DNA from: Bacteroidota bacterium | GTDB lineage: Bacteria > Bacteroidota > Bacteroidia > UKL13-3 | DNA: 32,224 nt | Assembly (NCBI GenBank): GCA_030699355.1 | Contig: JAUYMZ010000452.1 | Span: 1 to 32,224, forward strand | Direction: 5' to 3' | Part shown: piece by piece, positions 29,617-32,224 of the stretch | How positions within the stretch are numbered: the stretch's first letter is position 1 | Layout: each line of letters opens with the position of its first letter | Notes under the pieces: model-generated | The model's input: the letters and a program-made list of their open reading frames with translations, nothing else | Told to the model about the DNA's origin: nothing | The model's database searches: none | Made by a program: the position numbers and the translations under genes

Positions 29617-29654
29617 AAAAAAAAATCTGGCCATGCTTGGCCAGATTTTTTTTT
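29617..29654 (-). terminator. Rho-independent terminator of the M49 peptidase gene
   Basis: 17-bp stem AAAAAAAAATCTGGCCA / TGGCCAGATTTTTTTTT with 4-nt loop, directly at the stop codon. Confidence 0.9.
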
Positions 29655-31711
29655 TAGTTTTTGTTGGGTAAAAAACTGTATCGCTTACTTCTACCTAATT
29701 GGTCTTGAAGCCAATTGTCTGGGTAGCTAACTTTAACATCAATTATTTTGTTGTTCTCCATAATCGGACTCAATACGGGTTGTACAAAGCCTTTGTAAGG
29801 TGCTACGTTTAATTTCTCGAATCTTTCTTTTACTTCTTTAAGTAAAGTTTGGTCTACTTTTACGCCATAGGTTTCTACCAAAGCCTGACCCGCAGCAAAA
29901 TCTCCTTCCGACTTAATGCGTTGAATTTCGCGCAATAATTCTCCAAATAGTTCTCTCAATCTTTCGTAGTTGTTTACCTTTACGTAGGTTTTTCCGTTTT
30001 CTTTAAAGAAGCTAATTACGTTTTCGCTTTTACCTTTTTCGTAGGCCCACATGGCATTTAATTGGCGGTTGCGCATGTGTGCTTCTTCTAAATTTTCTCC
30101 TAAGTTTAAACGGGTTAATTGGGTTATTAAGCCATTGCGTATGTAGCCATCATATTCTGTTTTGCCTACTTCTAAACTCGGCATAATGCCCATGTCTACT
30201 AGCTTTTGGTCGTATACATAATACAAGGCCACTAAATCGGCGCGGGCTTCTTCTAAGGTACTGGCATAGTTCTTAAGGGTTTGGTCAGGGTCGCCAATGC
30301 CTGGGTTTATAATACCCGAGGCATGTCCAATAACCTCGTGCATATCTGTATGTAAATCTCCTGCCAAAGCGCCATATTTCTCGTTTCTGGCAATCTCTTC
30401 TGCCGACATGCAAAACTCTTTCATCATAGGGCTTTTAGCACCTACAATATTATACGCATGTACAATATTGCCGAGTGATACAGATTTAGAACCATGTTCT
30501 TGTCTAATCCAATTGGCGTTGGGTAAATTAATACCAATAGGAGTAGAAGGCGAGCTAGCACCTGCTTCTTGAATTACAGTAATTACTTTGGCGGTAATGC
30601 CTTTTACGCTGGCTTTTTTGTGTTGCGGTAAAATAGGAGAGTTGTCTTCAAACCACTGGGCTTCTTTGGCAATGGCAGCAATGCGTTTGGTAGCTTCCAT
30701 GTCTTTAATACTTACCACCGATTCAAACGAGGCTCTTTTACCAATGGCATCATCATATACTTCAATAAATCCGTTTACCACATCTAACCTGCTTTCGGTA
30801 TCATTTACCCAAGCAATATTGTACTCGTCCCAAATTTTTAAATCTCCAGTTTTGTAGTACTGAACCAATAATTCTAATGCTTTTTTCTGCTTATCGTTTT
30901 CGGCCACAGTCACTGCTTTTTCTAACCAATATACTATTTTTTCGATGGCTGCTCCGTACATGCCACCTACTTTCCAAACCTGCTCTTTTAGTTCGCCGTT
31001 TACTTTTACCAACTTGCTATTTAATCCCCACGAAATGGGTCTTCTGTCGCTGGTATCTATCTTAGCGGCATAATACGCTTCTACTTCTTTGGCCGTAACA
31101 CCTTCGTAAAAATTATTGGCAGAAGCGGCTACATTATCAATATTGGAAGCTAGGTTCACCAATTTAGCCTCAAAATTTGGGTCGAACCAAACCTTTTGCA
31201 TCTCGTTAATAAACTGCTCCACTTCTTTGCCTTCTAACGGAAGTAAGTTGGCATCTGAAGCTTTTACCAATTGGTTAAAATAGGCCGGACTACAAGCGGG
31301 TACAAACTTAATATTAGAGTAGTGGTGGTGAATGCCATTGGAGAAGAAAACACGCTTGGCATAGGTTTCAAATTGTTCCCATTCGGTGCCGCTGCGTTGG
31401 CCGGTATAGCTGTTTAAGATGGCTTCTAAGGTTCTGCGAATACTTAAATTGTGTTTGTATTTTTGGTCGTAGTAAATGTCTCTACCGCAATTAGCCGCTT
31501 CTGAGAGGTAATAGGCCAATTCTTTTTGTTGCAAACTAAGTTCTTCAAACCCCGGAATTTGGTAGCGCAAAACTTGTAAATCGGCAAAGTTATCGCAGTT
31601 TACTTCAAACGTATCTTCCTTTTGTCCAGTGCTTTTATTATCGCTTTTGCAGGCAGCAAAGGTGAGCATAGTGCCCATGGTTCCGTACATCATAATGGTT
31701 TTAAAATTCAT
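29654..31711 (-). CDS. Dipeptidyl peptidase III (M49 family) lipoprotein
   Basis: HExxxH motif 'HTDMHEVIGHASG' and 'EEARADLVALYY'; lipobox-like N-terminus 'GTMLTFAACKSDNKS'. Confidence 0.9.
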   Translation of the reverse strand: MNFKTIMMYGTMGTMLTFAACKSDNKSTGQKEDTFEVNCDNFADLQVLRYQIPGFEELSLQQKELAYYLSEAANCGRDIYYDQKYKHNLSIRRTLEAILNSYTGQRSGTEWEQFETYAKRVFFSNGIHHHYSNIKFVPACSPAYFNQLVKASDANLLPLEGKEVEQFINEMQKVWFDPNFEAKLVNLASNIDNVAASANNFYEGVTAKEVEAYYAAKIDTSDRRPISWGLNSKLVKVNGELKEQVWKVGGMYGAAIEKIVYWLEKAVTVAENDKQKKALELLVQYYKTGDLKIWDEYNIAWVNDTESRLDVVNGFIEVYDDAIGKRASFESVVSIKDMEATKRIAAIAKEAQWFEDNSPILPQHKKASVKGITAKVITVIQEAGASSPSTPIGINLPNANWIRQEHGSKSVSLGNIVHAYNIVGAKSPMMKEFCMSAEEIARNEKYGALAGDLHTDMHEVIGHASGIINPGIGDPDQTLKNYASTLEEARADLVALYYVYDQKLVDMGIMPSLEVGKTEYDGYIRNGLITQLTRLNLGENLEEAHMRNRQLNAMWAYEKGKSENVISFFKENGKTYVKVNNYERLRELFGELLREIQRIKSEGDFAAGQALVETYGVKVDQTLLKEVKERFEKLNVAPYKGFVQPVLSPIMENNKIIDVKVSYPDNWLQDQLGRSKRYSFLPNKN

Positions 31712-31745: not shown

Positions 31746-31830
31746 AATTCTAAAATTCTAAATTCTAAATCCGAAATTCGAAAATCGAAATCCGAAAATC
31801 GAAATCCGAAATTCTAAATTCGAAATCCGA
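31746..31830. repeat. Degenerate heptanucleotide tandem array (12 units of 7 bp plus one extra A)
   Basis: Parsed as AATTCTA|a|AATTCTA|AATTCTA|AATCCGA|AATTCGA|AAATCGA|AATCCGA|AAATCGA|AATCCGA|AATTCTA|AATTCGA|AATCCGA. Confidence 0.93.
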
Positions 31831-31908
31831 AAGTTAATTCATTATTCTGCCTTCATACACAAAGGTCCTTCGCTATCGCTCAGGATGACGCTGATTTTTT
31901 GCTTAAGG

Positions 31909-31955
31909 GCAATGAGATACAAGGGCGGTCTTCGGCCGCCCTTGTATCTCATTGC
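31909..31955. repeat. Long hairpin inside 177-bp unit 1
   Basis: GCAATGAGATACAAGGGCGG - TCTTCGG - CCGCCCTTGTATCTCATTGC, 20 paired positions. Confidence 0.95.
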
Positions 31956-32085
31956 TTGGGAATAGAATGTGATGCTGTCATACAGAGCGCAAGCGAAGAA
32001 CCTTGTGCTTCTTAATGGAAATTCTGCCTTCATACACAAAGGTCCTTCGCTATCGCTCAGGATGACGCTGATTTTTGGCTTAAGG

Positions 32086-32132
32086 GCAATTAGATACAAG
32101 GGCGGTCTTCGGTCGCCCTTGTATCTAATTGC
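32086..32132. repeat. Long hairpin inside 177-bp unit 2
   Basis: GCAATTAGATACAAGGGCGG - TCTTCGG - TCGCCCTTGTATCTAATTGC, 19 Watson-Crick pairs plus one G-T at the loop end. Confidence 0.95.
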
Positions 32133-32224
32133 TTGGGAATAGAATGCGATGCCGTCATTCAGAGCGCGAGAGAAGAACCTTGTGCTTCTTAATGGACATT
32201 CTGCCTTCATACACAAAGGTCCTT

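Follow-up and report, generated by a model that had tools for sequence, protein, structure and literature searches.

A tandem run of dispersed REP-doublet elements whose hairpin arms are probably kept paired by template switching at the DNA level

A tandem array at the end of a contig

The window analysed here, 32,224 nucleotides from a Bacteroidota bacterium, comprises the whole of C274, one of 478 contigs in a draft genome of 3.8 Mb, so that the tandem array at its right side is cut by the end of the contig and not by the window edge alone. This array forms the last 381 bases of the contig and lies upstream of an M49 peptidase gene on the minus strand (29654-31711). Tandem Repeats Finder recovered the 177-bp repeat that the initial annotation had described (31844-32224; period 177, 2.2 copies, 95% matches), and its units each contain two REP palindromes around a core hairpin (Table 1). 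The ends of these units are degenerate compared to the end motif of the family described below.

Table 1. Features of the tandem array and its immediate surroundings.
Feature	Position	Strand	Basis
Heptamer array, AAATTCG-type, 11.4 copies of 7 bp, adjoining the element	31753-31832		Tandem Repeats Finder
Unit 1 of the element (177 bp)	31844-32020	+	Repeat search; model match 31865-32007, E 2.7e-22
Left REP, unit 1: CGTCATCCTGAGCGATAGCGAAGGAC as read on the minus strand, CGTC tag inward	31865-31890	-	Box counts; own mini-hairpin
Core hairpin, unit 1: 20-bp perfect arms (repeat search)	31909-31955		Repeat search, folding, unit comparison
Right REP, unit 1: TGTCATACAGAGCGCAAGCGAAGAACC, TGTC tag inward	31976-32002	+	Sequence; family alignment
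Unit 2 of the element, 94-95% identity with unit 1	32021-32197	+	Model match 32042-32184, E 3.4e-20
Left REP, unit 2, CGTC tag	32042-32067	-	Sequence; box counts
Core hairpin, unit 2, mirror change T32091-A32127	32086-32132		Repeat search, unit comparison
Right REP, unit 2: tag CGTC (TGTC in unit 1)	32153-32179	+	Sequence; difference at 31976
Unit 3, first 27 bases, truncated at the contig end	32198-32224	+	100% identity with the unit start

Ten bases distinguish unit 1 from unit 2, and the majority of them have no mirror partner. The compensatory change noted earlier, by which the pair G31914-C31950 has become T32091-A32127, is present in the sequence, as is the change of C31936 to T32113 that turns G-C into G-T at the loop end. 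All remaining differences lie outside the core stem as had been stated, and to this we add that three of them hit paired bases of the predicted outer arms: all three break their predicted pairs, and all core changes keep pairing.

A 124-aa open frame on the minus strand runs across the tandem (31842-32216) and has no Pfam match; it is probably spurious, though easily annotated as a gene. Heptamer arrays (AAATTCG, ATTACGG, TTATGAA, and others) adjoin many copies of the element (e.g., L013, L018, L025, and L067), sometimes on both sides of a copy and once inverted.

A dispersed and mobile family with three hairpins

The full 177-bp unit, which the initial annotation had proposed to search for in the genome, is found here alone, yet a search with its conserved boxes revealed a dispersed family. 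At up to 3 mismatches, one of these boxes, CTTCGCTATCGCTCAGGATGAC, has 27 occurrences in the genome (reversed control, 0); its partner box occurs 25 times. The complete element is about 215 bp long and consists, in this order, of an end YTGCTGTCYRGGRWAA, a REP, a spacer, a perfect hairpin with arms of 15 to 26 bp and a 3-base loop, a second spacer, an inverted REP, and an inverted end, with the CGTC or TGTC tags of both REPs facing inward. Using a covariance model built from 17 copies, whose E-values are rough, we found 41 distinct places in the source genome at E<=0.01 (67 rows, since palindromes match on both strands) and about 33 in the congener G006 (MAG MS011 bin-011), which was also the sole return from a pattern scan of named genomes; other members of the genus have few or none. 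In a class-wide sample of 247 genomes, 38 have matches to the model at E<=1e-4, and 43 of the 50 class-wide loci scanned contain a strong hairpin, mostly between inward GATTCCTC...GGAATGAC and GTCATTCC...GAGGAATC boxes. Most relatives have TGTC as the tag of the right REP. Copies are dispersed at intergenic sites, and plasmid and phage collections returned no match. A REP of the same type lies within an apparent folP (dihydropteroate synthase) frame, perhaps in frame, at a locus of another family (L039, G050:C37:45992-46024).

Numerous contigs of the source genome (G000) end in or beside a copy (C10, C32, C43, C49, C55, C111, C188, and C209, and further C248, C257, C290, C366, C368, C395, C466, and C467), suggesting that the palindromes probably break assembly. 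All evidence comes from draft assemblies, and the true copy number is likely above our count.

Comparison of syntenic regions supports the earlier idea of a non-autonomous mobile element. At one site between two convergent genes, the source genome carries a copy where four congeners (G006, G001, G009, and G012) have only a short element-free intergenic region, indicating that the element inserts, as seen by presence or absence with a junction that is not exact. At the C297 copy, the right flank is conserved and the element absent in G006, with a different left neighbour, and the only matches for the C395 copy were other copies of the element. The end motif has 62 matches in two genomes (reversed control, 0), nearly all at element ends, and its off-element matches in these genomes are contig-end fragments or isolated ends and not an autonomous parent. 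No target-site duplication is evident at copies with both ends, and neither a mobilising enzyme nor a related full-length insertion sequence was found in the draft genome. The same draft genome encodes three RAYT-like Y1 transposases with Y1_Tnp domains (L034, G000:C354; L035, G000:C282; L036, G000:C438), which we considered and rejected as cognate mobilisers: they sit among other repeats, two of the three lying amid tandem arrays of another repeat that bears a palindrome (TACCGAAATATNTTCCCTACGGGAAAT), and therefore probably serve other REP families. We conclude that the array consists of tandemly arranged copies of a REP doublet that is dispersed and non-autonomous.

When folded as a whole, a unit reaches -84.3 kcal/mol compared to a mean of -47.4 for shuffled sequences (z -9.5; 0 of 200 shuffles). 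The single giant hairpin of this minimum-energy fold was nevertheless rejected as the conserved form, because left and right REPs show no correlation at the same positions and the outer-arm changes in the window break pairs. The diagnostic stem pair of the right REP is C-G in 24 cases and T-A in 14 with no mispairs; this internal covariation means that the REP folds on its own. The REP stem pairs ATTCT with AGAAT and GC with GC, two G/A mispairs lying between these segments; the loop is GATA in the short form, and the tail is CTC or similar rather than CCA. Each copy can thus fold as three separate hairpins within one DNA strand.

What keeps the hairpin arms paired

Two tandem copies alone are little proof of covariation, for which the dispersed family provides the decisive support. 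The 16 aligned hairpins of the source genome contain 51 doubly changed cells, and both sides vary in 13 of 21 stem pairs. Excess covariation over many copies was the check set in advance by the initial annotation, and the score of 0.489 does exceed both the 0.157 obtained with shuffles and the values of slid controls, which reach 0.100 at most. Over 46 hairpins from two species, 40 of them with distinct stems, 903 of 966 cells are Watson-Crick paired (93.5%) compared to no more than 718 after arms were exchanged between copies. Such an excess cannot separate selection on structure from template switching in DNA, but other footprints favour the latter.

These footprints are clearest between closely related copies. 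The 23 closest pairs differ by 73 double and 62 single stem changes, counts that do not represent independent events since the copies share ancestry. In 6 of these pairs, the loop is inverted (GAA/TTC or AAA/TTT) with no change in the orientation of the asymmetric outer boxes. Among orthologous or near-orthologous copies, C432 and C290 differ by two mirror changes from G-C to T-A, C261 and C349 by two adjacent mirrored pairs (an adjacent change of the type GG/CC to TA/TA was seen), C276 and C176 by two mirrored pairs plus an inverted loop, and C276 and C77 by one mirrored pair plus an inverted loop, each time with little other change. Similarly, at one locus shared by three species of another genus, an inverted loop separates L206 from L207 and one mirror change separates L206 from L208, with unchanged REPs in both comparisons. 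Separately, a terminator-like hairpin found between the same two genes in five congeners (L270-L273 and L069) has a wholly different stem in each species that is still palindromic, and might provide a set for comparison in studies of template switching.

The tip of the hairpin behaves differently from its stem. A survey of 95 hairpins, whose arms come in 88 distinct versions, showed 57 folded loops of GAA and 23 of AAA; GC closes the loop in 87, and purines make up 70% of the 5' arm. The tip GC-GAA-GC or GC-AAA-GC stays constant in at least nine genera whose stems are unrelated, and GAA may lie on either strand. The UUCG tetraloop highlighted by the initial annotation is not supported as the key feature, as the loop of the family is a triloop (GAA/TTC or AAA/TTT). 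A uniform tip on saturated stems suggests a constraint on the GC-closed GAA/AAA tip, as judged from sequence comparison, and the freedom of the strand that bears GAA points to DNA. The oligonucleotide d(GCGAAGC) forms an unusually stable DNA mini-hairpin that is far less stable as RNA. Extraordinarily stable mini-hairpins have been described as a class (PMC10527192).

It would be intuitive to read strong covariation and a very stable fold as signs of a stem selected as RNA, be it a small RNA, an mRNA stability element, or a transcript-end structure, with stepwise compensation via tolerated intermediates such as G.U, and the loop-end change in the window is indeed one from G-C to G-U. However, the mispaired states at pairs 2-21 of the 46 hairpins (13 G.U, 9 A.C, and 23 others) show no wobble preference, and although this test alone is blind if copies use different strands, other counterpoints remain. 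Compensation via G.U would favour transitions, but the double changes in the 23 closest pairs are not rich in them (28 transitions to 45 transversions, compared to 224:302 in the surroundings; p 0.53), and stepwise compensation does not yield loop inversions. Based on simple ORF calling, the genes around the copies have no preferred orientation (13 convergent, 13 divergent, and 24 tandem), with 5' and 3' gene ends equally near (56:55). The window has no Rfam match at gathering score, and no terminator-like site (GC-rich hairpin followed by a T run) was detected between 31600 and 32224. We therefore consider selection as RNA improbable, and the earlier proposals of a small RNA and a transcript-end structure are not borne out.

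Selection of the hairpin as DNA, with a protein that recognises it as a cruciform or as a folded single strand, compensation in two steps, and no template switching, would account for the constant tip on unrelated stems and for mispairs without strand preference. Yet it would require the exact loop inversions from GAA to TTC to arise from three simultaneous substitutions, once at an orthologous locus with the rest of the element unchanged, and adjacent pairs to be altered jointly, which makes this account unlikely on its own. Ectopic gene conversion between dispersed copies, importing whole hairpins with both arms together, could exploit the long identical boxes common to many copies and would fit the recurrence of some stems. 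Nevertheless, the 46 stems include no donor for the changed one of C290, GTATAC (though donors may have been lost in assembly), and changes of single or adjacent pairs within otherwise unchanged stems as well as the one-step changes at the L206-L208 locus render it quite unlikely. Finally, collapsed or misjoined repeats might have produced the array and its unit differences, given that the contig terminates within the array and that many copies lie at contig ends. This seems highly improbable because the same anatomy and mirror changes recur mid-contig in independent genomes and the two units differ at ten mostly unmirrored bases, even if the tandem copy number itself comes from a draft assembly.

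Mirror substitutions and loop inversions, together with the lack of wobble preference, transition richness, gene bias, and Rfam or terminator matches, indicate that the arms are probably kept paired in DNA by template switching from one to the other. Gene conversion between arms, raised at first as an alternative, has become the best-backed reading. A mutation would strike one arm, and DNA polymerase would switch template at the hairpin and copy the change into the other arm, sometimes inverting the loop by the same switch, so that the palindrome would stay perfect while its sequence drifts irrespective of the transcribed strand. The constraint on a GC-closed GAA/AAA triloop would keep the hairpin easily foldable as DNA and, as the weakest step, a trans-acting enzyme, possibly a single-strand transposase of the HUH/Y1 type, might spread the element. 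On sequence comparisons, we assign a probability of roughly 0.7 to this whole explanation of a REP-doublet element with arms homogenised by template switching, a tip constraint, and mobilisation in trans. Selection for a perfect DNA hairpin could still act alone or alongside template switching: the tip constraint implies that some selection exists, and one-arm mismatches are not rare (62 single to 73 double stem changes), so that correction is incomplete. A more far-reaching version, in which a class-wide single-strand mobile family of the Bacteroidia has the three hairpins as its DNA substrate, a putative enzyme recognises the GC-GAA-GC tip on either strand, and the GAA/TTC flip is also a product of the mobilisation cycle, appears doubtful.

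Relation to known systems

If correct, the element is a natural many-copy record of arm homogenisation at the DNA level in bacteria. It is also a warning for covariation-based RNA discovery, since a repeat that needs no function as RNA would pass for a structured RNA by its covariation statistics. CGTC-type REPs, which are not known to have a mobiliser, would gain a widespread element form for direct tests of mobilisation and template switching.

Published work describes matched multiple changes and inverted loops as marks that template switching leaves at inverted repeats (PMC8794818 and PMC8604942), and both are found in the element. The likeness to template-switch (quasipalindrome) mutation thus extends to arm homogenisation, matched double substitutions, and inverted loops (PMC8794818, PMC8604942, and PMC7202029), but the process has been described for RNA genes, for genes of yeast, and for reporters in E. 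coli, whereas here it would have acted repeatedly on a single dispersed family throughout a bacterial class. According to one of these papers (PMC8604942), transversions were favoured in earlier data from bacteria, whereas the double changes observed here match their background; an apparent excess of transversions among orthologous double changes vanished in the larger sample.

Similar to bacterial MITEs, the element is short (about 215 bp), non-coding, intergenic, bounded by inverted ends, and polymorphic for insertion, but differs from them in that no parent insertion sequence or target-site duplication was found. With REPINs or BIMEs mobilised by RAYT (TnpA-REP; PMC3116915, PMC6006769, and PMC8266576) it shares the organisation as non-autonomous, intergenic REP doublets in many copies with conserved mispairs in the REP stem. 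Their tag is GTAG instead of CGTC/TGTC, however, and the RAYT-like genes of the source genome do not sit among copies of the element.

Also closely similar are the CGTC-tagged REP dimers of Di Nocera et al. 2013 (PMC3733652). In that work, the superfamily is defined by a tag of CGTC (or TGTC or CCTC) at one end of a short palindrome with an 8 to 9 bp stem that starts with AT, a loop of 4 to 5 bases, and an unpaired 3-base tail that is mostly CCA; the REPs of the window carry such CGTC/TGTC tags. Further likenesses lie in what appears to be an AT start of the stem by the tag and a short loop, and in inverted pairs, occurrence in Bacteroidetes, structured spacers in some dimers, and the lack of a dedicated transposase. 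Unlike those dimers, for which inward-facing (TT) tags are said there to be rare, the element has its tags inward, contains two G/A mispairs in the REP stem, and has as its spacer a long, perfect, and hypervariable hairpin with a constant tip. We found no description of this form of the element in our search of openly available papers. It is best seen as a novel form of an established repeat type, the CGTC REP dimer, and its covariation is most likely due to a mutational process that is already known.
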